A DNA stretch of 21,936 nucleotides from a virus, in the IMG/VR virus record IMGVR_UViG_3300038786_000457, positions 1 through 21,936 of that record; one strand, written 5' to 3'. This document shows positions 4,668 to 14,388 of this stretch, in pieces (within the stretch, counting starts at the first letter, position 1; each line of letters opens with the position of its first letter). Under the pieces are notes generated by a model. It saw nothing but the letters and a program-made list of their open reading frames with translations. It was not told where the DNA came from and did not search any database. The position numbers and the translations under genes are program-made.

Positions 4668-6098
4668 ATGAAAATAGAAGAAATTAATCTGATAGCAGAT
4701 ATTGGCGAACGCATTGCAGAACTAAAAAAACGTGTAACGAATGAACCCGAAACACAGGAAAATTTCAAAGATTGGGATTTCACAAAACATGATGTTTTCA
4801 ATACAGAAATTCGAAAGAAAAAGAAGGTTTTAGTTAAAGAACCAGTACTAAATATAGACGGATCAACAAAACATCCAGCAGTTTACAAAGATGAAGAGGT
4901 GAATAGAATCGCTTTGCCATTAGAACAAGATATTGTAAACATTCATACAGCGTTTACAGTTGGCGAAGAACCCACTTTAGAAAGTGAAACCGAAACTGAA
5001 GAAGAAGAACAATTTTTAAAGATCATAAAGAACATTTACCAAAGAAATAAACTAAAATACGCAAACAAAAAAATAGTGCGTTCATGGTTATCAGAATGTG
5101 AAGTTGTAGAATATTGGTACACAACAGAAGATGCAAGCTGGTGGAAAAGAATATTGAAATCGTTAAGTGTTAGCACACAACCAAAAAGAAAGCTAAAATC
5201 TACCATCTTTTCACCGTTCCGTAACGATAAGTTGTTTCCATATTTTGATGAATATGGCGATTTAACAGCTATTTCAAGAGAATACAAAGCAAAAGATGCT
5301 GAAGATAATGAAGTGGTTAAATTCATGTCTATTGATGCCAAAAACGTGACAATTTACACAGGCAACAAAGTTGAAAAGAGTTTTGCACATGGTTTCAGCA
5401 AAATACCTGCAATTTACATGTATCGTGAAAAACCATACTGCAGTAAAATTAAGACACTCCGCAATAGATTAGAGGTTTTACTATCTAATTTTGCTGATTG
5501 TTTAGATTATAACTTTTACCCTAAACTGGTTTCAGTTGGTGAACTAGAAGGCGTTCAGAACAGGGGTACAACTTCAGAAATAATTGAACTTGCTGATGGT
5601 GGTCAAGTTTCCTATTTAACATGGGATCAATCACCTGATATGGCAAAATTAGAATTTGACAACCTAACAGAAAAAACCTACCATTTGACAAACACGCCTT
5701 TAATCAGTTTTGAAAAGCTGCAGGGAATGGGAAATGCCCCAAGTGGGAAAGCGTTTGAATTTATGTTCATGGGCACACACATGGCGGTTTCAAATCATGC
5801 TGAAGTAGTTGAAGAATTTCTGCAAAGAAGATTGAACTTTTTAATTTCTGCAGTTGGTACTTTATACCCAAAGATGAAAAACACATCTGAATCTATAATT
5901 ATCGATACAGCTATAGTTCCGTACACAATCGACAATCAAACCGAAAAAATAAATGATGCTGTTAATGCGGTTTCAGGCGGTGTTGCTTCATTAAAAACTG
6001 GTATTATTTTGGCTGGCTTAACTGATCAGGTGAAAGAAGAATTAGAGCAATTGGAATTACAAAAGACAAAAGAACTTTTTGAACCAACAGAATTATGA
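4668..6098 (+). CDS. portal protein (SPP1 gp6-like)
   Basis: A 476-residue protein in the usual portal position between large terminase and minor head protein. Family cues are VNRIALPLEQDIVNIHTAF (residues 78-98), the early segment holding the clip and wing start, an acidic run ETETEEEEQ near residue 105, a basic KYANKKIVRSWL helix, and SPFRNDKLFPYFDEYGDL near residue 183. The C-terminal half contains LRNRLEVLLSNFADCLDYN, typical of SPP1-type portals, and a Gly/Ala-rich region near 355-370. It forms the dodecameric DNA entry vertex and contacts terminase and the head completion proteins. Its stop overlaps the next start (ATGA). Confidence 0.88.
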   Translation: MKIEEINLIADIGERIAELKKRVTNEPETQENFKDWDFTKHDVFNTEIRKKKKVLVKEPVLNIDGSTKHPAVYKDEEVNRIALPLEQDIVNIHTAFTVGEEPTLESETETEEEEQFLKIIKNIYQRNKLKYANKKIVRSWLSECEVVEYWYTTEDASWWKRILKSLSVSTQPKRKLKSTIFSPFRNDKLFPYFDEYGDLTAISREYKAKDAEDNEVVKFMSIDAKNVTIYTGNKVEKSFAHGFSKIPAIYMYREKPYCSKIKTLRNRLEVLLSNFADCLDYNFYPKLVSVGELEGVQNRGTTSEIIELADGGQVSYLTWDQSPDMAKLEFDNLTEKTYHLTNTPLISFEKLQGMGNAPSGKAFEFMFMGTHMAVSNHAEVVEEFLQRRLNFLISAVGTLYPKMKNTSESIIIDTAIVPYTIDNQTEKINDAVNAVSGGVASLKTGIILAGLTDQVKEELEQLELQKTKELFEPTEL

Positions 6099-7879
6099 TA
6101 CCTTTTGACAAGTGGAACATTCAACATAACAATGAAGCAGAATTAGATGTTTCTGAAGTTATGAAATTATATAGTGATCTAATATTACAGGCTGGGGCAT
6201 TCGCTTCATCTGTAGTATTGGATTTCGATATATTCAAATTTAAGAAGTTTCCAGCACTTGAAAAGAAAATTGATGCATTGCTAAGCAAACATGCTTTTAG
6301 CGTACAGGCACGCATTGAAAGCGGCATAAATAAGCATTGGGAAATATCACAGACAAAGAATGATTTATTTACTAAAAAGGCATTTAAAAAGTACCAAATA
6401 AAAACAGATCCAATTGCAACAAGAAATGCTGAAGGTTTAACAGCCTACAGAAATAGAAGAAACAGAAAATTAAGTAGTAGGGTTTGGAATTTAAACAAAC
6501 AGTTTAGAAATGAAATTGAAATGTCAATTGATACAGCTATTAAAAGCGGCAAACCAGCGAATCAATTAGCAACAGAATTAAAAAAATATTTAAACGAACC
6601 TGAAAAATTATTTCGCAAATACAAAGACAATAATGGCTTAATGCAATTGTCTAAAAATGCAAAGGCGTACAGGTCGGGTCAAGGGGTTTACAAAAGTAGT
6701 TTCAAAAATGCTCAAAGATTAGCACGTACAGAAATTAATATGGCTTACAGACTTTCTGATCTTGATAGGTGGAGCAGATTAGACTTCATAATCGGTTATG
6801 AGATCAAAAGGAGCAATAACCCCTTCCCCTGTCCTACTTGCGAAATGATGAAAGGAAATTATCCTAAAGATTTTGTATGGTCGGGAAATCACCCCAGCTG
6901 CAGGTGCTATTTAGTGCCAATAATGAAGAAAGAAGAAGACTTTATTAAAAGCATGCAAACAGGCGAATCAATGCCATTTGAAACCACGCCAATAAATCCA
7001 AAGTTTACCAAATTTATAAGCGATAACCAAAACAAGCTACAGACTGCAAAATCACTACCTTATTTTATAAAAGACAATACAAAATACGTAAAATTCAAGA
7101 AACCAGCATCTTTAAAAAGGGCAAGTATTGAAGAAGCTTTAAGCAACGGCAGCATTACAGAAAATATATTTATGGTAGATAATAAGTATTCACCTGAAAG
7201 GCAGCTTTTACACAATAAAATAATTTCAGAATATTTAAACGTTAAAAAGGTAAGTTCCGACAAGATATATATGTTAGGCGGTGCAACAGCAAACGGCAAA
7301 TCAACGGTTATAAATAGCGGAAAACTACCACATAAAAAAGGCAGTTTAGTATTAGACCCTGACAAGATCAAAGAAATGATACCTGAATACAACATTATGT
7401 TAAAATCAGGCGATGCAGCCATGATAAAAGGTGCGGCAAACTTTGTGCATGAAGAAAGTAGTTATTTGGGTAAAATCATAAGCAAACGAGCCTTAACAGA
7501 AAATTACGGTGTTGTTGTAGATGGCGTAAATGATGGAGCATTTGAAAAAGTTGCGAGCAAAGTAAAAGAGTACAAAAAATTATCAGGCAAAAAAATACGT
7601 GCAGATTATGTTTCCCTAGATACTGATTTGAGCATTAAACTAGCTAAAATGAGATCTGACAAAACAGGGCGTGAAGTTCCTATAAAATTCATCAAAGATG
7701 TAAATATCGAAGTGAGTTTATTAGTGCCAAAACTTCTTAAAAATAACACATTTGATGAATTATACCTTTGGGACACCAATATTAATGGAGTGCCAAGACT
7801 GATTTTAAAACAAATTGAAGGCAAATTGACCATGTATGACAATGCACTATATCAGCGATTTTTAAAGAAAGCTAATTAA
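6095..7879 (+). CDS. minor head (Mu F / SPP1 gp7-like) protein fused to a C-terminal zeta toxin-like kinase
   Basis: A 594-residue two-part protein. Residues 1-275 are a phage head morphogenesis domain: ARTEINMAYRLSDLDRW near residue 210, then CPTC (246-249) and HPSCRC (266-271), whose cysteines and histidine could bind zinc, as in Mu gpF-type minor head proteins. Residues about 365-590 form a zeta toxin-like P-loop kinase: a lead-in with YSPERQLLH, Walker A GGATANGKST (395-404, K402), DPDK (D421, D423), HEESS (452-456), and RSDKTGREVP with R520 and R526. Zeta toxins phosphorylate UDP-N-acetylglucosamine, and these residues match their ATP and substrate sites. No epsilon-type antitoxin is visible nearby. 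The kinase may enter the cell with the head contents, or be a dispensable effector; this is inference. Fusions of virion proteins to effector domains are a known theme in phage polyvalent proteins. Confidence 0.85.
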   Translation: MIPFDKWNIQHNNEAELDVSEVMKLYSDLILQAGAFASSVVLDFDIFKFKKFPALEKKIDALLSKHAFSVQARIESGINKHWEISQTKNDLFTKKAFKKYQIKTDPIATRNAEGLTAYRNRRNRKLSSRVWNLNKQFRNEIEMSIDTAIKSGKPANQLATELKKYLNEPEKLFRKYKDNNGLMQLSKNAKAYRSGQGVYKSSFKNAQRLARTEINMAYRLSDLDRWSRLDFIIGYEIKRSNNPFPCPTCEMMKGNYPKDFVWSGNHPSCRCYLVPIMKKEEDFIKSMQTGESMPFETTPINPKFTKFISDNQNKLQTAKSLPYFIKDNTKYVKFKKPASLKRASIEEALSNGSITENIFMVDNKYSPERQLLHNKIISEYLNVKKVSSDKIYMLGGATANGKSTVINSGKLPHKKGSLVLDPDKIKEMIPEYNIMLKSGDAAMIKGAANFVHEESSYLGKIISKRALTENYGVVVDGVNDGAFEKVASKVKEYKKLSGKKIRADYVSLDTDLSIKLAKMRSDKTGREVPIKFIKDVNIEVSLLVPKLLKNNTFDELYLWDTNINGVPRLILKQIEGKLTMYDNALYQRFLKKAN

Positions 7880-8078
7880 AAGAAATATTATAGCCGCCTT
7901 TTTTGATCAACCGCTTGCCTTCCTCCTGCAGTTCTTCTTCTTTTTTGTTTTGGGGTGTTCGTTTACCCCTAGCAAGATAATTGTAGATTGTATCAGGATC
8001 TAAATAAGGTGAATTACAATATTCTAAATAAGTATTGTATTCATTGCCAAGATCATCTATGAATTTGTTTTTGCTCAA
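7872..8078 (-). CDS. small hypothetical protein, possible moron gene, 68 aa
   Basis: A 68-residue charged protein on the opposite strand to all its neighbours. It starts 3 bases after the lipoprotein gene stops, so the two form one minus-strand operon, and its 3' end overlaps the end of the minor head gene by 8 bases tail to tail. The central part, LDPDTIYNYLARGKRTPQNK, reads like a helix-turn-helix followed by a basic loop, and the C-terminus is a charged helix EEELQEEGKRLIKK. DNA binding is possible but unproven. Its tidy N-terminus and operon spacing argue against a shadow frame. Confidence 0.65.
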   Translation of the reverse strand: MSKNKFIDDLGNEYNTYLEYCNSPYLDPDTIYNYLARGKRTPQNKKEEELQEEGKRLIKKGGYNISFN

Positions 8079-8081
8079 AAT

Positions 8082-8378
8082 TTAACGTATTTGTTCACCA
8101 TCAGCATAAAGTTTGTAACCATAAAATTCAAACTTTGTTGTGGATCTGACAGATGCACCGTAACTATTATTTGCCCCATAGCTAACTACAACAGTAGCAC
8201 TAAATGCTTTATCATTAGTTACAGTTTCGCTGTAGATCTTTAGGGAACTAGGATCTTTTAATGTTTTGCGCAAATACTCTTTATACTTCATTTTGCAAAG
8301 TCTTACAGAATTACTATCACATGACATCAAGGTAATTGAAGCTAAAAAAAGCACTAATATCATTCCTTTAATTTTCAT
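8082..8378 (-). CDS. small lipoprotein, probable moron
   Basis: A 98-residue protein with a clear type II signal peptide: MKIKG, a hydrophobic core, then the lipobox LMSC with the lipidated cysteine at residue 20 followed by DSNS. The mature part contains KMKYKEYLRKTLKDPSSLKIYSE and beta-rich repeats SYGANNSYGAS. DPSS-containing short lipoproteins of this kind occur widely in Bacteroidota. It is transcribed against the structural genes and carries its own upstream region, so it may be expressed from a prophage. Surface lipoproteins of phages often block superinfection or alter the host envelope; that role is inferred. Confidence 0.75.
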   Translation of the reverse strand: MKIKGMILVLFLASITLMSCDSNSVRLCKMKYKEYLRKTLKDPSSLKIYSETVTNDKAFSATVVVSYGANNSYGASVRSTTKFEFYGYKLYADGEQIR

Positions 8379-8646: not shown

Positions 8647-8714
8647 TTACAAAAATAATTAGGTAAATTGTATTTTAATAGTCGTTTGTACTATTATAAG
8701 TTATATATTTGCAC
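8647..8714 (+). promoter_or_regulatory. island promoter with paired operators, copy A
   Basis: The -7 box TATATTTG is at 8704-8711, with the ATG at 8738. Operator O1 is TTACAAA (8647-8653) and ATTGTAT (8667-8673) with a 13-base spacer. O2 is a weak copy, GTACTAT (8688-8694) and TTTGCAC (8708-8714), also with a 13-base spacer. The -33 region has no TTG at the usual distance. It is the most diverged of the six copies. Confidence 0.65.
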
Positions 8715-8737
8715 TTTAACGAAAAAAGACACGAAAT

Positions 8738-8944
8738 ATGGATTGGCTTAACAGCAGAAAAAAACCAAGATTTAAACATTTATCAAATGTTCAGCTGGTA
8801 GAGCGCATAAATAATGCACCTGAATTTGAATGGAATTTTGAAGGGTACGAACTAGAAAGAAGAGTTAAAAAATCTGCAGGCAATTTTAAATGCAGCATGC
8901 AGAACAGTATTATTGTGATCTTAAAAAACAACAATACAAATTAA
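8738..8944 (+). CDS. small hypothetical protein, 68 aa
   Basis: A basic 68-residue protein with the segment NNAPEFEWNFEGYELERRVKK, a pattern of tryptophan and acidic residues followed by a basic helix. No family is recognised. It is expressed from island promoter A. The last codons and the stop TAA (8942-8944) lie inside the first operator of promoter B, so gene end and operator sequence are constrained together. Confidence 0.6.
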   Translation: MDWLNSRKKPRFKHLSNVQLVERINNAPEFEWNFEGYELERRVKKSAGNFKCSMQNSIIVILKNNNTN

Positions 8945-9000
8945 TTAAAAATAATTGTATTTTTATAGTAATTATACCAAATGATATTGTATATTTGTAT
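8934..9000 (+). promoter_or_regulatory. island promoter with paired operators, copy B
   Basis: The -7 box TATATTTG is at 8990-8997. O1 is ATACAAA (8934-8940) and ATTGTAT (8954-8960). O2 is ATACCAA (8974-8980) and TTTGTAT (8994-9000), whose right arm covers the end of the -7 box. Both have 13-base spacers, and 13 bases separate O1 from O2. The leader continues TATAAGAAATAACAACAACC as in copies C to F. Confidence 0.75.
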
Positions 9001-9036
9001 AAGAAATAACAACAACCATTAAAACACTATAAAATT

Positions 9037-9285
9037 ATGAAAACTTACTTAAAAAATTTAATTACAGAAAAAGGTTTTAGCTTAGAAGATGAAATTACGA
9101 TTAAAGGGCATTTTGGGGTTACTTATCAAATGCTAGTTGATTTTATTGTAGAAGCAAAACAATACCACAAAGAGATCAGAAAAACGCTTGTTTACATTGA
9201 TTTTAAAGATGGCAATGTTTTTCATTATCTAGATCATTTAGCAGTTGGCATGATTAAATCATTAGGCTATGAAGTAGAAGCATAA
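9037..9285 (+). CDS. small hypothetical protein, 82 aa
   Basis: An 82-residue soluble protein with helix and strand alternation, for example FVEAKQYHKEIRKTLVYIDFKDGNVFHYLDHL. It starts 39 bases after the -7 box of promoter B and is followed by a strong terminator at 9308-9339, so it forms a single-gene unit. Function unknown. Confidence 0.65.
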   Translation: MKTYLKNLITEKGFSLEDEITIKGHFGVTYQMLVDFIVEAKQYHKEIRKTLVYIDFKDGNVFHYLDHLAVGMIKSLGYEVEA

Positions 9286-9307
9286 ACAAGCAAAAAACAT
9301 GAATTTT

Positions 9308-9339
9308 AAAAGAACGTATTTAATACGTTCTTTTTTTTT
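9308..9339 (+). terminator. factor-independent terminator
   Basis: AAAAGAACGTA (9308-9318) pairs perfectly with TACGTTCTTTT (9324-9334) across a 5-base loop and runs into nine T residues. It closes the unit of the gene at 9037 and sits just before promoter C. Unlike the attenuator-like terminators it has no overlapping short upstream hairpin. Confidence 0.85.
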
Positions 9340-9346
9340 ACCTAAA

Positions 9347-9413
9347 ATACAAATTAATTAAAATAGTTTGTATGATTACTTGTGTAATACATATATGTTA
9401 TGTATATTTGTAT
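9347..9413 (+). promoter_or_regulatory. island promoter with paired operators, copy C
   Basis: The -7 box TATATTTG is at 9403-9410, and a TTG at 9380-9382 lies 20 bases upstream, fitting a -33 element. O1 is ATACAAA (9347-9353) and TTTGTAT (9367-9373). O2 is ATACATA (9387-9393) and TTTGTAT (9407-9413). Spacers and the gap between operators are all 13 bases. Confidence 0.8.
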
Positions 9414-9447
9414 AAGAAATAACAAAACAACCTAAAAAAACAAGATC

Positions 9448-9642
9448 ATGAAAAACGAATTTAACATAGTATCATTTGCAAAGACTTTAGAAATTGCTGA
9501 AAACATCATAGCAGGTAGAAAAATTCAGTCTTTAGATGGCAGCAAAAGTGAATTTAAAATTGAATCACTAGACAACATTTTTGTTGTAAAAGTGAAAACG
9601 GTTCTTACAGCAGAACTACAAAAAGAAGTAAATAACAGATAA
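9448..9642 (+). CDS. small hypothetical protein, 64 aa
   Basis: A 64-residue protein with a helical N-terminal half (SFAKTLEIAENIIAGRKIQS) and a beta-like second half (FKIESLDNIFVVKVKTVL). No family is recognised. The start follows the conserved leader ending in AAGATCATGA, and the next gene starts 12 bases after the stop, so the two are co-transcribed from promoter C. Confidence 0.6.
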   Translation: MKNEFNIVSFAKTLEIAENIIAGRKIQSLDGSKSEFKIESLDNIFVVKVKTVLTAELQKEVNNR

Positions 9643-9654
9643 AAAATAGAAATC

Positions 9655-9909
9655 ATGAACACTATTTCAACTATTGAAAACGCATTAAAAAATACAGGTT
9701 TTGCAAAATATAAAGCATCAATAATTTTAGAATCAAACGTACTAGACGGCTGGTTTATGGATAAAGCAAATACAACATTTGTAGACAATTTGAGTGAGTT
9801 AATATATGATCTTAACGACTTACAGATTAATATTGATTATGATCTTCAGATTCAAAAAACAGTTCTTTTAAAGGGCGTTTTTGAAGGCTACCTGAATAAA
9901 ATCAGCTAA
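9655..9909 (+). CDS. small hypothetical protein, 84 aa
   Basis: An 84-residue acidic protein beginning MNTI, like the MTTI and MNTI starts of the genes at 10010, 10203 and 10756. It has the hydrophobic-acidic run FVDNLSELIYDLNDLQINIDYDLQI. The context AAATAGAAATCATGAA before the ATG repeats that of the gene at 66. Its stop TAA is directly followed by the first operator of promoter D. Function unknown. Confidence 0.62.
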   Translation: MNTISTIENALKNTGFAKYKASIILESNVLDGWFMDKANTTFVDNLSELIYDLNDLQINIDYDLQIQKTVLLKGVFEGYLNKIS

Positions 9910-9977
9910 ATACAAAATAATTAAAAAAATTTGTATTTTTGTGACTGATAATACAATTTAATATATTATATTTGTAC
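9910..9977 (+). promoter_or_regulatory. island promoter with paired operators, copy D
   Basis: The -7 box TATATTTG is at 9967-9974. O1 is ATACAAA (9910-9916) and TTTGTAT (9930-9936), a perfect 7-bp inverted repeat. O2 is ATACAAT (9951-9957) and TTTGTAC (9971-9977). Spacers are 13 bases and the gap between operators is 14. The -33 position has CTG in place of TTG. Copy E at 10653 is nearly identical over promoter, leader and the first coding bases. Confidence 0.8.
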
Positions 9978-10009
9978 AAGAAATAAAAACAACCCTAAAA
10001 AATCATATC

Positions 10010-10186
10010 ATGACCACTATCTCAAATTCAACAGGCAGCAAGAAAGTAAATATCTTCAAAGACGGCACAGGCATGATTAGGGCGCTTTATGTTCAAGTTT
10101 ATAATGGACAAGAGCAAGTTCTAAACAGTAAATCTTATCAATCTCTTAAAATGGCTGAAAAATGGGCAAACGCTCAATTAAAATAA
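10010..10186 (+). CDS. small hypothetical protein, 58 aa
   Basis: An ATG at 10010 opens a 58-residue frame ending at TAA 10184-10186. The protein is basic, starts MTTISNSTGSKK and has a beta-like middle (MIRALYVQVYNGQEQVL) and a helical end (SLKMAEKWANAQL). It follows promoter D after the conserved leader, and the next gene starts 16 bases after its stop. Function unknown. Confidence 0.6.
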   Translation: MTTISNSTGSKKVNIFKDGTGMIRALYVQVYNGQEQVLNSKSYQSLKMAEKWANAQLK

Positions 10187-10202
10187 TCTAAAAACGCAAA
10201 TC

Positions 10203-10547
10203 ATGAATACCATTATCGAAGTAGATCAAATTAATTATTCTGAAAATATAATCGTAACAAAAGAAAATTTGTTAGAGGTGTCTAATTTTATAAAATCTTT
10301 AAAATGGTCTTATATCGTAAAAGGTGAAGTGCTAATTAAAAATACATATAGAATTTTAGACATAGTAAGAAAAAGAAATATCAATTCATTATGCCCTTGG
10401 GAAAATGTAGTGACCACCTACAAAGCCTGCACGCTTGCAAGAAGAATAGATGGCTATATAACCTTCATAGAAATGCCACTAAGAGAAACTTATATCACAA
10501 ATATGAAGATAAAAGATTTGACATGGGGTTTAAAAAAGATCAAATAA
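10203..10547 (+). CDS. hypothetical protein, 114 aa
   Basis: A 114-residue basic protein, the second gene of the promoter D unit, beginning MNTIIEVDQ. It contains two cysteines (in LCPWE and KACTLA) and a central KNTYRILDIVRKRNINSL stretch. No domain is recognised. The stop is 4 bases before the small membrane peptide gene, suggesting one transcript with 10010 and 10552. Confidence 0.62.
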   Translation: MNTIIEVDQINYSENIIVTKENLLEVSNFIKSLKWSYIVKGEVLIKNTYRILDIVRKRNINSLCPWENVVTTYKACTLARRIDGYITFIEMPLRETYITNMKIKDLTWGLKKIK

Positions 10548-10551
10548 AAAC

Positions 10552-10650
10552 ATGAAAATTCTAATTTTAAAAATCATTTCAGGCGTTTTTTTCGCTTACA
10601 TCATTACAGCTTTACTAATTGACGTTTTCAAAAATGGTTCAAGAATGTAA
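10552..10650 (+). CDS. single-pass membrane micropeptide, 32 aa
   Basis: An ATG at 10552 opens a 32-residue frame ending at TAA 10648-10650. Residues 3-24 are almost wholly hydrophobic (LILKIISGVFFAYIITALLI), followed by a short charged tail DVFKNGSRM, so it is expected to span the inner membrane once. It lies 4 bases after the preceding gene and 2 bases before the first operator of promoter E. Function unknown. Confidence 0.5.
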   Translation: MKILILKIISGVFFAYIITALLIDVFKNGSRM

Positions 10651-10652
10651 TT

Positions 10653-10720
10653 ATACAAAATAATTAAAAAAATTTGTATTTTTATGATTGATAATACAAT
10701 TTAATATATTATATTTGTAT
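10653..10720 (+). promoter_or_regulatory. island promoter with paired operators, copy E
   Basis: The -7 box TATATTTG is at 10710-10717 and a TTG at 10688-10690 lies 19 bases upstream. O1 is ATACAAA (10653-10659) and TTTGTAT (10673-10679). O2 is ATACAAT (10694-10700) and TTTGTAT (10714-10720). Spacers are 13 bases and the operator gap is 14. It has the closest match to the full consensus. Confidence 0.82.
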
Positions 10721-10755
10721 AAGAAATAACAAAACAACCCTAAAAATACAAGATC

Positions 10756-10971
10756 ATGACCACTATTCTAAATAAAATTGAAACATTAAGAACTAAAGCT
10801 AACAAAACTAAATCTGTGAAAACTTATAATGCATATGGTGTTGAAATGACATCTTTACAGATTATGAACTTTAATAAATATCTTGACAATAATAGAATTT
10901 CTATGAATACTTTTTACAAGCAAGAAAGAACAGTAGTAGCAAAAAATTGGATAAACCAGTTAAACAAATAA
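10756..10971 (+). CDS. small hypothetical protein, 71 aa
   Basis: A 71-residue, strongly basic, mostly helical protein starting MTTILNKIETLRTKANKTK. It shares its promoter, leader and first eleven coding bases with the gene at 10010, but the rest of the protein differs, so the two 5' regions were duplicated or exchanged. It ends just before a G4-N8-C4 hairpin. Function unknown. Confidence 0.6.
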   Translation: MTTILNKIETLRTKANKTKSVKTYNAYGVEMTSLQIMNFNKYLDNNRISMNTFYKQERTVVAKNWINQLNK

Positions 10972-10979
10972 AAAACAAA

Positions 10980-10995
10980 GGGGCGTAAAAACCCC
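10980..10995 (+). promoter_or_regulatory. leader hairpin G4-N8-C4, copy 1
   Basis: GGGGCGTAAAAACCCC can fold into a 4-bp G-C stem with an 8-base loop. It is 16 bases before the ATG at 11012. A near-identical copy (one loop difference) stands exactly 16 bases before the ATG at 12449, and the bases before each copy (AACAAAG) also match. No T-tract follows, so it is not a terminator; a translational or processing signal is likely. Confidence 0.5.
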
Positions 10996-11011
10996 TATTA
11001 AAAAAAAACAA

Positions 11012-11131
11012 ATGGAAGATTTAATTGGATTGACAGAATTTGTGAAAACTGAAAAAGGTATCACAAAAATTAGTTTAGAAGAATTAATGGAATTTATACC
11101 TGAATACAATCTTTGGTTAAGAAGAAACTAA
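11012..11131 (+). CDS. small acidic protein, 39 aa
   Basis: An ATG at 11012 opens a 39-residue frame ending at TAA 11129-11131. The product has a helical, acidic middle (SLEELMEFIPEYNLW) and ends in LRRN. It follows the conserved G4-N8-C4 hairpin with the same 16-base spacing seen at 12449, which supports it as a real gene. Function unknown. Confidence 0.5.
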   Translation: MEDLIGLTEFVKTEKGITKISLEELMEFIPEYNLWLRRN

Positions 11132-11148
11132 AAATTATTTTAAAAAAA

Positions 11149-11502
11149 ATGGAAATAGAAAGACTTTTGCAATTAGAAACTACAGAAAAAGATAAAATTG
11201 AAATGATCATAAGCAATAATTTTGATTTGATTTATAAAGGTAAGGCGGCTGTAACAATCGATAAATGGGATAAACTAAGTGATGAAATTTTAGCGTGGAA
11301 AAATTACGAATCTGAAAAATTAGTTTTGCCTATTCTCAATCAATCATATTCAATAATTGAAAATGAAAAACGTCTTTTTGGAAAAGTGATAAGCGTGCAA
11401 GTGAATACAGGTAAGTTTTGGGTAAAATGGAGTGATGGGGATTTAACACTAGAAAGCAATATAGACAATTGCATGCTAAGTTTAGGCGCGCAACCATCTT
11501 AA
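11149..11502 (+). CDS. hypothetical protein with possible SH3/Tudor-like C-terminus, 117 aa
   Basis: I place the start at ATG 11149, after an A-rich stretch and 17 bases after the preceding stop; a longer frame from TTG 11113 overlaps the previous gene and is less likely. The N-terminal half is helical and charged. The C-terminal 40 residues, with RLFGKVISVQVNTGKFWVKW followed by SDGDLTLE, look like a small five-stranded barrel of SH3 or Tudor type. That fold guess is weak. Function unknown. Confidence 0.6.
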   Translation: MEIERLLQLETTEKDKIEMIISNNFDLIYKGKAAVTIDKWDKLSDEILAWKNYESEKLVLPILNQSYSIIENEKRLFGKVISVQVNTGKFWVKWSDGDLTLESNIDNCMLSLGAQPS

Positions 11503-11524
11503 AAACCCCTTAGATAAATAGATT

Positions 11525-11803
11525 ATGAAAATACAAGAAGAAGTTAATCAAATGATTTTAGAACTAAAAAAAGATTCAAGAATAAATACCCTTGACGCTT
11601 TCATTCCAAATACTACTTTATTTTATAGTTTTTACGCATCTATTACTGGTTTTTTAGACGGTAATTATTTTAGTATTTATATAAAATCAACAAATAATTG
11701 TTCTAAAATAAGAGCAACAGTTTGCAGAACGACTGACCAAAAACGAAAATTAAATGAGTATTTAAAGACAGTTTTTAGCTATAAGTTTATAACCAAAATA
11801 TAA
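11525..11803 (+). CDS. hypothetical protein, 92 aa
   Basis: A 92-residue protein with a helical N-terminus (IQEEVNQMILELKK), an aromatic middle (LFYSFYASITGFLDG) and a basic C-terminus. It starts 22 bases after the preceding stop and 9 bases separate it from the next gene, so it sits in the middle of the promoter E unit. No domain is recognised. Confidence 0.6.
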   Translation: MKIQEEVNQMILELKKDSRINTLDAFIPNTTLFYSFYASITGFLDGNYFSIYIKSTNNCSKIRATVCRTTDQKRKLNEYLKTVFSYKFITKI

Positions 11804-11812
11804 AAAAAATAA

Positions 11813-12100
11813 ATGAATTCACATCAAAAGTTAGAGTTACACAATTATTATAAAGAATTAGTTCAGAACGGTACAATTAAAACAATTAATGAAGCTTTAG
11901 TTTTTAAGCTAAGCTATGAAAAAGCATTTTCTTTTGCTGGTGTTGTGAAGCCATTAAAGGATAGACAGGAATTAACTTTTGAAGAATGGACAGTTGTTAA
12001 AGATTATGTGAAAAAAAATAATTACTATTTAAAAAATGAAAAAAAAATCACAGAAAAAGAAGTGTTACGCAGGTACACTTTTGGCTTAAAAACCCTTTAA
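11813..12100 (+). CDS. hypothetical protein, 95 aa
   Basis: A 95-residue, lysine- and tyrosine-rich, mostly helical protein, the last gene of the promoter E unit. It contains ELTFEEWTVVKDYVKKNNYY and a C-terminal EKEVLRRYTFGLKTL. The ATG follows an A-rich stretch without a Shine-Dalgarno sequence. Function unknown. Confidence 0.6.
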   Translation: MNSHQKLELHNYYKELVQNGTIKTINEALVFKLSYEKAFSFAGVVKPLKDRQELTFEEWTVVKDYVKKNNYYLKNEKKITEKEVLRRYTFGLKTL

Positions 12101-12150
12101 TTGTTGCCAACTATGATATAACAACACCCCTATGAATGAAGAAATAAAAA

Positions 12151-12217
12151 ATACAAAATAATTGAAATTAATTGTATTTTTATGTTATTTATACTAAATG
12201 ATATTGTATATTTGTAT
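12151..12217 (+). promoter_or_regulatory. island promoter with paired operators, copy F
   Basis: The -7 box TATATTTG is at 12207-12214. O1 is ATACAAA (12151-12157) and ATTGTAT (12171-12177). O2 is ATACTAA (12191-12197) and TTTGTAT (12211-12217). Spacers and the operator gap are 13 bases. The leader TATAAGAAATAACAAAAAAAC matches the other copies. Confidence 0.78.
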
Positions 12218-12245: not shown

Positions 12246-12386
12246 ATGCTAACATCAACTTTAACACTTATGTTTAACAGAATTGCAGAATTAGAAAAAA
12301 AACAAGATGATCAAACCATCACAATGAACGAAGAAAGCATTTTATGCAATCTAATTGAAGCAGCTGAAACCGCTATGTATGCTTAA
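12246..12386 (+). CDS. small hypothetical protein, 46 aa
   Basis: An ATG at 12246 opens a 46-residue frame ending at TAA 12384-12386. The product is helical and acidic in its second half (ITMNEESILCNLIEAAETAM). It is the first gene after promoter F, at a leader distance similar to the genes after promoters C and E, which supports it as real. Function unknown. Confidence 0.5.
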   Translation: MLTSTLTLMFNRIAELEKKQDDQTITMNEESILCNLIEAAETAMYA

Positions 12387-12416
12387 AGAGAAACCAGCTA
12401 AACAACTAATAACAAA

Positions 12417-12432
12417 GGGGCGTGAAAACCCC
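12417..12432 (+). promoter_or_regulatory. leader hairpin G4-N8-C4, copy 2
   Basis: GGGGCGTGAAAACCCC differs by one loop base from the element at 10980 and again ends exactly 16 bases before an ATG (12449). The conserved stem, loop and spacing point to a signal acting on translation start or mRNA stability. Confidence 0.5.
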
Positions 12433-12448
12433 ATTAAAACGAAAAAAA

Positions 12449-12604
12449 ATGAGCAGATTAAATTCAAGAGCGAACATAGTAAAAAGTGAAAAAGGGCATG
12501 ATGTTTTTATAGATAATGAATTTATTCTTTGGGTCACAGGTTCAAGAAGACAAGCAACGAAAGAATTAGAATTGCATTTAAAAAAGTATTCAATTATTCT
12601 CTAA
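12449..12604 (+). CDS. small basic protein, 51 aa
   Basis: I choose ATG 12449 because it keeps the 16-base spacing from the conserved hairpin; a GTG at 12422 would extend the frame into the hairpin itself. The 51-residue product is basic and has a pattern of short strands (KGHDVFIDNEFILWVTG) followed by a helix (RRQATKELELHLKK), which resembles small nucleic-acid-binding phage peptides, without a recognised family. Confidence 0.55.
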   Translation: MSRLNSRANIVKSEKGHDVFIDNEFILWVTGSRRQATKELELHLKKYSIIL

Positions 12605-12632
12605 TTATTAAAAAAAAGATTTACTGATAAAA

Positions 12633-12899
12633 ATGAAGAAGAAACAAGACCCTAAGCAGCTTCAAAGATGCTTTATATTAATAGACTTACTAATACAAGA
12701 ACTAGACACAGTTACAGAAAAGCACACGCCAATCACAAAGGTGCTAAGGGCGCAACTGGGATCTGTTCAAGACACTTTGATAAAATTATATGAAGATGTG
12801 TATATCAAGGGAAATATAGGTAGAACAGCCTTTTTTCAAATTCTGCAAAATAAATTTAATTACAATATTGAAATGTTAGAAAAAAAATTGCAAAAATAA
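12633..12899 (+). CDS. hypothetical protein, 88 aa
   Basis: An 88-residue, mostly helical protein with LILIQELD-like hydrophobic heptads (FILIDLLIQELDTVTEK) and a basic C-terminal helix. It could form a small coiled-coil dimer. It lies 28 bases after the preceding stop with no promoter between, so it is probably in the promoter F unit. Function unknown. Confidence 0.62.
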   Translation: MKKKQDPKQLQRCFILIDLLIQELDTVTEKHTPITKVLRAQLGSVQDTLIKLYEDVYIKGNIGRTAFFQILQNKFNYNIEMLEKKLQK

Positions 12900-12957: not shown

Positions 12958-13167
12958 ATGGCATTTTGGTTATTAAACAAAGAAACAAACGAAGCAAGAA
13001 TTTTTGGTAGTGTTTCAAAATTATGCGAAGAAACAACTTTAGGAACAGACAACATGTACCGCCATTTTGGTCGTAACAAAGAAAAAGAATATAATAATCC
13101 TTCTTACAGAATTGTATCTACAGAAATCGAAAAATCTAAACGAACAATTAAAGACATGAAAGGCTAA
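12958..13167 (+). CDS. small putative DNA-binding protein, 69 aa
   Basis: A 69-residue protein, MAFWLLNKETNEARIFGSVSK at its start, in which FGSVSKLCEETTLGTDNMYRHF reads as a helix-turn-helix like the modular DNA-binding segments of homing endonucleases (NUMOD type), followed by a basic RNKEKEYNNPSYRIV strand. No catalytic domain is attached, so it would act as a DNA-binding or adaptor protein. The family match is by eye and uncertain. It is the last gene of the island. Confidence 0.6.
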   Translation: MAFWLLNKETNEARIFGSVSKLCEETTLGTDNMYRHFGRNKEKEYNNPSYRIVSTEIEKSKRTIKDMKG

Positions 13168-13307
13168 TGTACCAGCAAGTTAGAAAGACAATAATATTTT
13201 AATTTCATGCATAAAACCTAATATTGCATGCGTTTTCTGATTATCTTTTTGCTGTAAAAATAAAATATTTAAGGAATAACTGAAGTGTTTGAATGTAAAA
13301 ATAACTA

Positions 13308-13373
13308 TTTGTACGAATTTTTATAAGTATTTGTACCATCAATACAACATAATAGAATATTTTAGTATATTTA
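13308..13373 (+). promoter_or_regulatory. possible degenerate promoter with operator-like sites before the Com-like gene
   Basis: The gap 13168-13394 holds no gene that I can support. Near its end TATATTTA (13366-13373) resembles a -7 box 21 bases before the ATG at 13395. ATACAAC (13342-13348) and TTAGTAT (13362-13368) form an imperfect inverted repeat with a 13-base spacer, whose right arm starts 4 bases before the -7 box as at 354. TTTGTAC occurs twice upstream (13308-13314 and 13330-13336). This could drive the Com-like gene and, if read through, the capsid genes. Confidence 0.4.
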
Positions 13374-13394
13374 CAGGACATTTTAAGATGTTTT

Positions 13395-13565
13395 ATGCCA
13401 CAGCTGAAAGAATTTAAGTTTATAATTGATGAAGACGATAAAACAAGAATTAAATGCCCAAAGTGCTACAGTTTTATTTGTGAAATAAAGCCAATACTTT
13501 TGAAGGGTCAAGAGATCGTAACAAGATGCAGAAAGTGCGCCACAAACGTTATGATTAAGAGATAG
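13395..13565 (+). CDS. Com-like zinc ribbon protein, 56 aa
   Basis: An ATG at 13395 opens a 56-residue frame ending at TAG 13563-13565. It contains two Cys pairs, CPKC (residues 21-24) and CRKC (residues 45-48), spaced as in a zinc ribbon, with a basic RIKCPKC lead and an MIKR tail. Size and pattern match the Com family; Com of phage Mu is a zinc-binding protein that activates translation of mom mRNA by binding near its start. The role here is unknown, and other zinc ribbons are possible. It stands alone between the island and the tandem hairpins before the scaffold gene. Confidence 0.7.
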   Translation: MPQLKEFKFIIDEDDKTRIKCPKCYSFICEIKPILLKGQEIVTRCRKCATNVMIKR

Positions 13566-13649: not shown

Positions 13650-13704
13650 ACTCATAAAGGAGTGTATAATCGGTAAAACAACCGATTGTATGCTCTTTTT
13701 TTTT
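13650..13704 (+). terminator. hairpin terminator with overlapping short upstream hairpin, copy 3
   Basis: A stem of 15 pairs (13660-13674 with 13681-13695, including G-U pairs) around a 6-base loop is followed by nine T residues. ACTC (13650-13653) can pair with GAGT (13660-13663) across ATAAAG. The start of this element repeats that of copy 2, 67 bases upstream. It ends 18 bases before the scaffold gene, and no promoter is visible in between. Confidence 0.78.
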
Positions 13705-13722
13705 AACTATAAATAAATAAAA

Positions 13723-14388
13723 ATGAAAACAAAAATCTTTGAAGCATTGAAAACTAAATATTCAAATTTGGGGTTCAATAAAGATGTATTAGAGGGCGTT
13801 GCAACGCAATTGAGTGCATTTGTAACAGAAGAAGGTGGAATAGCAAACGCAGTTGTGGGTGCTGAAGCAATGCTAAAGACATTTCAATCATTCTCTGATA
13901 GTAGAGTTAATTCCTTTCAAACAGAAAGCGCAAAAGACAAAGCAGAAACAGAAGCATTGAAATTGAGATTGGCAGCATTTGAGAAGCCAGCCGTTTCAAA
14001 ACCAGTTGAAGATGTTCCGCAGTACGTGTTAGACATGCAAGCAACAATGGAACAAATGAAACAAACTTTAACAGGTTATCAAACAACTAAAGTTTCTCAA
14101 AACTTAACAGAAGATTTTATTGCTCAAATGGGTAATAAAAAAGTACCTGCAAGCTTTTATAAGGCTAATTTAATCGGTAGGGAATTTAAAGATGAAACTG
14201 AAATGAATGCGTTTGCTGGTTCTGTAGCTTCAGGGTATGAAGCACATGAACAAGAATTAACCAATTTAGGATTCAGTTACACTCAACCGCCTGAAGGTGG
14301 CAAACCCAATCTTGAAAAAGAAAGCGAAGAAATGGCGAATATGATCGCAGCAGGTACAAAACAAATTGTAGAACAATCTAAAAATTAA
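13723..14388 (+). CDS. putative capsid scaffolding protein
   Basis: A 221-residue protein just before the decoration and capsid genes. It is acidic and mostly helical, with a likely coiled coil around residues 70-125 (SAKDKAETEALKLRLAAFEK, then QATMEQMKQTLTGYQ), no cysteines, and a charged C-terminal end. This composition and position fit an internal scaffold that guides shell assembly and leaves before packaging. No protease gene is seen nearby, so removal would be by exit or by self-cleavage elsewhere. It follows the tandem hairpins directly. Confidence 0.75.
   Translation: MKTKIFEALKTKYSNLGFNKDVLEGVATQLSAFVTEEGGIANAVVGAEAMLKTFQSFSDSRVNSFQTESAKDKAETEALKLRLAAFEKPAVSKPVEDVPQYVLDMQATMEQMKQTLTGYQTTKVSQNLTEDFIAQMGNKKVPASFYKANLIGREFKDETEMNAFAGSVASGYEAHEQELTNLGFSYTQPPEGGKPNLEKESEEMANMIAAGTKQIVEQSKN

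Follow-up and report, generated by a model that had tools for sequence, protein, structure and literature searches.

What reads a promoter that a phage carries six times, each time overlaid with four evenly spaced operator half-sites? The question is raised by a complete virus record in IMG/VR, 21,936 bp long (IMGVR_UViG_3300038786_000457), the whole of which was analyzed and is called the window here. The element consists of an upstream inverted repeat (O1) and a second one (O2) that reaches into the -7 box. A first interpretation made from the DNA letters, the sequence-only reading, proposed a phage regulon in which one multimeric protein binds O1 and O2 together; left-arm conservation, concerted half-site change and a co-occurring candidate regulator gene now support that proposal. 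We consider it likely that the six elements are sigma-A promoters of flavobacterial type on which a four-half-site operator is superimposed. The operator would be bound cooperatively by the protein encoded at 12958-13167, an autoregulator, and probably a repressor, of six small-gene operons. The architecture of the element, its conservation across numerous phages, the linkage between promoter and gene, and the concerted change of the half-sites are established at the level of sequence; binding and repression are proposed from them.

Architecture of the six promoters

All six copies (A to F, Table 1) share the -7 sequence TATATTTG, and the positions first reported for them were all correct. Each copy meets the Bacteroidota sigma-A -7 consensus TAnnTTTG, the consensus described for flavobacterial sigma-A (PMC9723704). 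O1 measures 27 bp in every copy, as does O2, whose right arm overlaps the -7 box. By its sequence, O2 sits within an ordinary Bacteroidota sigma-A promoter, and part of its right arm is the -7 box itself. The half-sites (consensus WTACAAA) start 20, 20-21 and 20 bp apart, which confirms the layout originally described and places all four on nearly one face of the helix. From A to F the O1-O2 gap is 14, 13, 13, 14, 14 and 13. The statement that this gap is 13 or 14 and never anything else holds for the window copies but not for relatives in other phages, where it is 12-14, O2 is sometimes 26 bp, and one locus (L011) has about one additional helical turn in the gap. Sigma-A promoters of this kind also have a -33 TTG about 19-21 nt upstream. 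In the window it is present (at N19-20) only in C and E, reported as good; A and B, at first described as degraded, lack it, as do D and F. Copy A is the most degenerate, with O2 arms GTACTAT and GTGCAAA.

The four-arm pattern gave 5 matches against 0 in 100 shuffles, and ATAC-N17-TTGTAT has 16 exact matches where 0.13 are expected. Scored over all four arms (maximum 28), C and E reach 27, B, D and F reach 26, and A reaches 21; 500 dinucleotide shuffles of the region had a 95th percentile of 18 and a maximum of 22, and promoter segments shuffled at equal AT content scored 19 or less. The concern that such arm pairs might be as common in shuffled DNA is therefore answered for the pattern as a whole but not for copy A, whose score falls in the extreme tail of the regional shuffles, so that by itself it is not clearly beyond chance. 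Copies D and E are 95% identical, and B and F about 84%. Being near-duplicates, the members of these pairs are not independent within the window, and the window alone cannot separate function from recent duplication.

Conservation of the element in other phages

IMG/VR and 84,980 genomes were searched with a pattern made up of just the O1 arms and a -7 box, which could lie anywhere from 24 to 54 nt apart. Chance matches were spread over the gap sizes, and a distinct group appeared at 28-30 nt, plus one match at 40 nt, about a helical turn more; this group can be aligned along the entire element. This promoter-only scan yielded 18 true contigs. The element is also found in INPHARED in cultivated virulent Muminvirus phages of Flavobacterium LMO6/LMO9, a group described as lytic (PMC7077304). 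Scanning other genomes, a step suggested at the outset, thus recovered the element in many unrelated flavobacterial phages. Most genomes have a single copy, L039 has three and the window six, and we conclude that the six copies in the window phage represent an expansion.

Left arms are conserved in these unrelated phages together with the -7 box, as the sequence-only reading requires: the O2 left arm contains TAC in 42 of 63 elements versus 3 of 59 other TAnnTTTGTA sites at the same loci. O2 is moreover retained at four loci where O1 has decayed (L110, L112, L123 and L145). A leader with the sequence TATATTTGTATAAGAAATAACA, or one close to it, is found at L008:7777, L010:2760 and L089:2467, where O1 is missing, indicating that the downstream leader is conserved separately.

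A small protein gene linked to the promoter

Comparison of gene content among element-bearing contigs identified families of small proteins encoded downstream of the promoter. Every one of the 18 promoter-only contigs has such a gene on the same strand (55-80 amino acids, aa): family I (60-69 aa) in 5, family II (55-56 aa) in 10, and a weakly similar third type in 3 (L018, L028 and L041). The family members in L034 and L054 were missed at first. Conversely, searching with the proteins alone gave 61 loci, and in 47 of these the promoter lies on the same strand, 159-1232 nt before the gene; outside the profile training set the figure is 34 of 48, and one more genome locus, L168, likewise has the promoter by the protein gene. 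The first genes behind the promoter vary among phages, while promoter and regulator are constant. A tblastn search of INPHARED with family I proteins found nothing. In the window the family I member lies in the operon that copy F appears to drive, and this linkage makes its product the probable binder of the four-arm element.

Two further observations concern family II. L084 (OP947161), labelled Rhodobacteraceae phage LS06-2018-MD05, has an element of Bacteroidota type together with a protein resembling family II, and its host label may be wrong. Family II-like proteins of 71 aa are encoded in the flavobacterial host genomes L163, L164, L165 and L166; in L163, TACAAA half-sites occur several times in the short region between this gene and a divergent one, an arrangement resembling a bidirectional switch.

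Families I and II are linked by comparison of their profiles, with an E value of 1.8e-4 at a probability of only 49%, and by a shared predicted fold. AlphaFold models of both families have the topology beta-beta-alpha-alpha-beta-beta (pLDDT 89-90), and the top VIA match of both is residues 115/121-174 of I-HmuI, its C-terminal DNA-binding module, over almost the whole protein. The scores (Z 4.9 with 3.4 A over 56 aligned residues; Z 4.7 with 3.0 A over 53) are modest in absolute terms; Foldseek gave prob 0.97 and TMq 0.67 for family II. In Pfam, 4 of 15 family I members have sub-threshold matches to NUMOD1 (best E 0.0047), the window member having none; HTH_3 (XRE/CI) was not matched, and helix-turn-helix (HTH) matches were all sub-threshold, such as HTH_26 (E 0.07) and HTH_36 (E 0.0048). 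These proteins of 55-70 aa consist of one small domain and contain no GIY-YIG, HNH or EDxHD nuclease domain. Searches of the solved structures with sequence profiles of the two families turned up no convincing relative.

Concerted change of the half-sites

Divergent members replace TACAAA by TGTAAA, TATAAA or TGCAAA, and the O1 left arm, O1 right arm, O2 left arm and -7 overlap shift together. The GT type is represented by L162 (AAGTAAA/ATGTAAT/TTGTAAT/ATGTAAA) and L160 (AAGTAAA/ATGTAAT/TTGTAAT/AAGTGAA), the AT type by L156 (ATATAAG/TTATAAT/ATATAAA/TTATAAA), and the GC type, O2 left arm excepted, by L084 (ATGCAAA/ATGCAAT/ATGTTTA/ATGCTAA). L153 and L157 are mixed, with left arms TAGAAA and right arms TGTAA. 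L162, L156, L153 and L084 retain the -33 TTG despite loss or shift of the G of TAnnTTTG. Because the arms change in concert with the -7 overlap while the -33 TTG stays, the pattern suggests that a single protein most likely reads all four half-sites. A scan for divergent sites that did not prescribe the half-site sequence gave scores of 27-33, against a null of 300 with its 95% point at 24 and maximum at 28; L162 and L156 are beyond this null, and L153 and L160 taken alone are at its edge. Permutation of arm columns gave P values from 5e-5 to 8e-3, which ignore shared descent and draw on about four lineages.

Proposed mechanism and alternatives

The candidate protein is expected to bind DNA, with subunits on O1 and O2 that share one helix face and would span the 13-14 bp gap to touch each other. 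Since O2 fills the -33/-7 spacer and reaches into the -7 box, its occupancy should exclude RNA polymerase, although we are less certain of this step. O1 may then serve as an auxiliary site that raises occupancy or adds cooperativity. In the window phage the protein might, again with less certainty, repress its own operon and five further small-gene operons, and such negative feedback would limit a surge in the expression of early or accessory genes. Autorepression is favored by the position of O2 over the -7 box and by its persistence where O1 has decayed. In addition, 49 of 63 promoters overall keep the -33 TTG (N18-20) and thus look active without help, in favor of repression.

Several observations weigh against this interpretation. 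A protein of 55-69 aa could bridge half-sites two turns apart only as an oligomer. The fold similarity is modest, with Z below 5 and Foldseek E values of 0.45 and 2.2, and all Pfam matches are under the curated cut-offs. The third protein type is weakly assigned, the lineages behind the permutation P values are few and their shared descent uncorrected, and the arms of L158 and copy A have not changed in concert. Finally, the four window promoters without a -33 TTG, and some relatives whose -7 box is without the consensus G, would suit an activator.

Activation is the main rival because of those four promoters. The same small protein would bind the four half-sites, and O1, near -55 and beside RNA polymerase, would compensate for the missing -33; a site upstream of -33 is indeed in an activator-like position. 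O2, however, lies across the spacer with its right arm inside the -7 box and outlasts the loss of O1, and most relatives have a full -33/-7 promoter. We regard activation as unlikely, though it is the strongest of the alternatives.

It is less probable still that promoter and protein simply travel together in a mobile cassette and that the protein acts on another target. The two are always within about 1.4 kb of each other, and cassettes do move, as in L005, which has wholly different genes in the same place. Yet the intervening genes vary from phage to phage, lineages whose proteins have diverged show concerted change of the arms, and the protein has a predicted DNA-binding fold.

There is little to recommend the idea that the element is read by a regulator of the host, or by the host's RNA polymerase alone, acting through an AT-rich UP element and a sigma-A promoter. 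The -7 box is of the host type and O1 is AT-rich and placed like an UP element, but in two flavobacterial genomes O1 showed no enrichment relative to the reversed pattern used as control, the genome scan yields nearly only scattered chance matches, and UP elements need no two 27-bp palindromes changing in concert. A host regulon was rejected on these counts and on how seldom the candidate regulator proteins occur in flavobacterial genomes (in 4 and 5 of 349).

O1 is exactly reverse-complemented between the near-identical loci L007:9467-9549 and L009:4213-4294, and inverted forms occur in L102 and L113; that O1 should for this reason be a recombination (inversion) site is very hard to credit, since a symmetric operator tolerates inversion of its spacer and is expected to be found both ways round, O1 keeps a constant distance of 28-30 nt from the -7 box, apart from a single case that lies roughly a helical turn farther away, and no recombinase was seen.

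Genomic setting of the proposed regulon

The window contains terminase-like, portal-like, MuF-like, capsid and tape-measure-like genes of a tailed phage. The MuF-like protein (6095-7879) has a C-terminal zeta-toxin domain (Pfam E 1.5e-14). Small, mostly orphan genes run from this gene to the one at 13723, and the six promoters stand in front of them (Table 1). A megablast search of the whole window against INPHARED found no match.

Table 1. Promoter copies, genes and terminator-like hairpins of the small-gene region (window coordinates).
Feature	Position	Strand	Details
Copy A	8647-8714	+	O1 8647-8673; O2 8688-8714; -7 box 8704-8711
Small orphan gene	8738-8944	+	68 aa; under copy A
Copy B	8934-9000	+	O1 8934-8960; O2 8974-9000; -7 box 8990-8997; no -33 TTG
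Small gene	9037-9285	+	82 aa; under copy B; PHROG 6004, function unassigned in PHROG
Intrinsic terminator-like hairpin and U tract	9308-9334	+	boundary of operon B and promoter C
Copy C	9347-9413	+	O1 9347-9373; O2 9387-9413; -33 TTG 9380-9382 (N20); -7 box 9403-9410
Two small genes	9448-9909	+	64 and 84 aa; under copy C
Copy D	9910-9977	+	O1 9910-9936; O2 9951-9977; -7 box 9967-9974
Two small genes	10010-10547	+	58 and 114 aa; under copy D; second is PHROG 36750, function unassigned
Copy E	10653-10720	+	O1 10653-10679; O2 10694-10720; -33 TTG 10688-10690 (N19); -7 box 10710-10717
Several small genes in a row	10756-12100	+	downstream of copy E
Copy F	12151-12217	+	O1 12151-12177; O2 12191-12217; -7 box 12207-12214
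Small genes	12246-12899	+	46, about 50 and 88 aa; between promoter F and candidate regulator
Candidate regulator gene	12958-13167	+	69 aa; family I; operon of promoter F
Strong terminator-like hairpin	13656-13699	+	end of cassette region, before the 13723 structural gene

Past the regulator gene, at 13280-13395, is a half-site-like cluster with two TATTTGTAC, ATACAACATAATAGAATATTTTAGTAT at 13342-13368 and then TATATTTAC; this may be a seventh, divergent control site. A 44-nt repeat, AACAAAGGGGCGTRAAAACCCC, terminator-like on the minus strand, occurs at 10971-11014 and 12408-12451, ahead of small genes. Two minus-strand genes at 7872-8378 run against all others; one encodes a small protein resembling a lipoprotein, the other a 68-aa protein faintly similar to the regulator family.

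The relative L005, with a capsid protein 82% identical to that of the window phage, lacks the six elements and has another gene set in their place, and is thus unusable for comparing the element. Its region (L005:5611-8554) is made up of wholly different small genes, including one for a Cro/CI-like HTH protein, and we conclude that the small-gene region is a site of cassette exchange.

Relation to known systems and significance

To our knowledge, no operator with such geometry has been described, and we know of no description of the protein family as a transcription factor. Lambda-type CI/Cro systems have several operators per promoter, as the window phage does, together with cooperative binding and autoregulation, which are proposed here as well. 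Their operator half-sites are about 10 bp apart, whereas those of the window are 20 bp apart, and no XRE/CI domain exceeded the Pfam cut-off. The sites of the Mu C/Mor activators also lie upstream of a phage promoter and have short arms with a long spacer between them; the arms differ, and no second operator over the -10 region is known in that system. Literature searches, with most subscription papers outside their scope, found no description of the element or the protein, in agreement with the novelty first claimed for the operator, and the words promoter and repressor are absent from the Muminvirus paper (PMC7077304).

By analogy, the nearest functional precedent is I-TevI, which like other phage homing endonucleases acts as a transcriptional autorepressor and whose operator overlaps its late promoter (PMC2988022). 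Common to both would be a phage-encoded protein with a modular DNA-binding part and an operator over its own promoter, such that binding blocks RNA polymerase. The system proposed here differs in having no nuclease domain (55-69 aa only), four symmetric half-sites, and six operator copies in the window phage. The NUMOD1/I-HmuI C-terminal module has the same predicted topology and is the best solved-structure match for both families, but here it would be a stand-alone protein rather than a nuclease appendage, at an identity of 11-15%. The SAS and ESAS of Cluster K mycobacteriophages (PMC3203893) are likewise repeated start-associated elements with an inverted repeat before a subset of small phage genes. 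SAS is, however, a translation-start repeat, and ESAS has 17-bp arms and a variable spacer (PMC3203893), unlike the rigidly spaced promoter-operator with a linked regulator seen here; the 13-bp SAS GGGATAGGAGCCC defined in that work is absent from the six elements.

On balance we lean slightly toward the view that the proteins are stand-alone phage transcription factors, forming a new family that descends from homing endonuclease DNA-binding modules. Its members would read four half-sites two turns apart on one face, with a code (TACAAA, TGTAAA, TATAAA or TGCAAA) switched in concert that includes bases of the -7 box, amplified in the window phage to a six-operon regulon. If so, nuclease-type DNA-binding modules would have been reused as transcription factors, and the protein would join the small number of regulators that have been proposed for phages of flavobacteria. 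An unexplained repeat becomes a testable switch, with a protein of 55-69 aa, a defined operator, and cultivated Muminvirus phages that carry gp009 and its promoter. Natural operator-regulator pairs of differing specificity may also be of use for recognition studies and for building switches in Bacteroidota.

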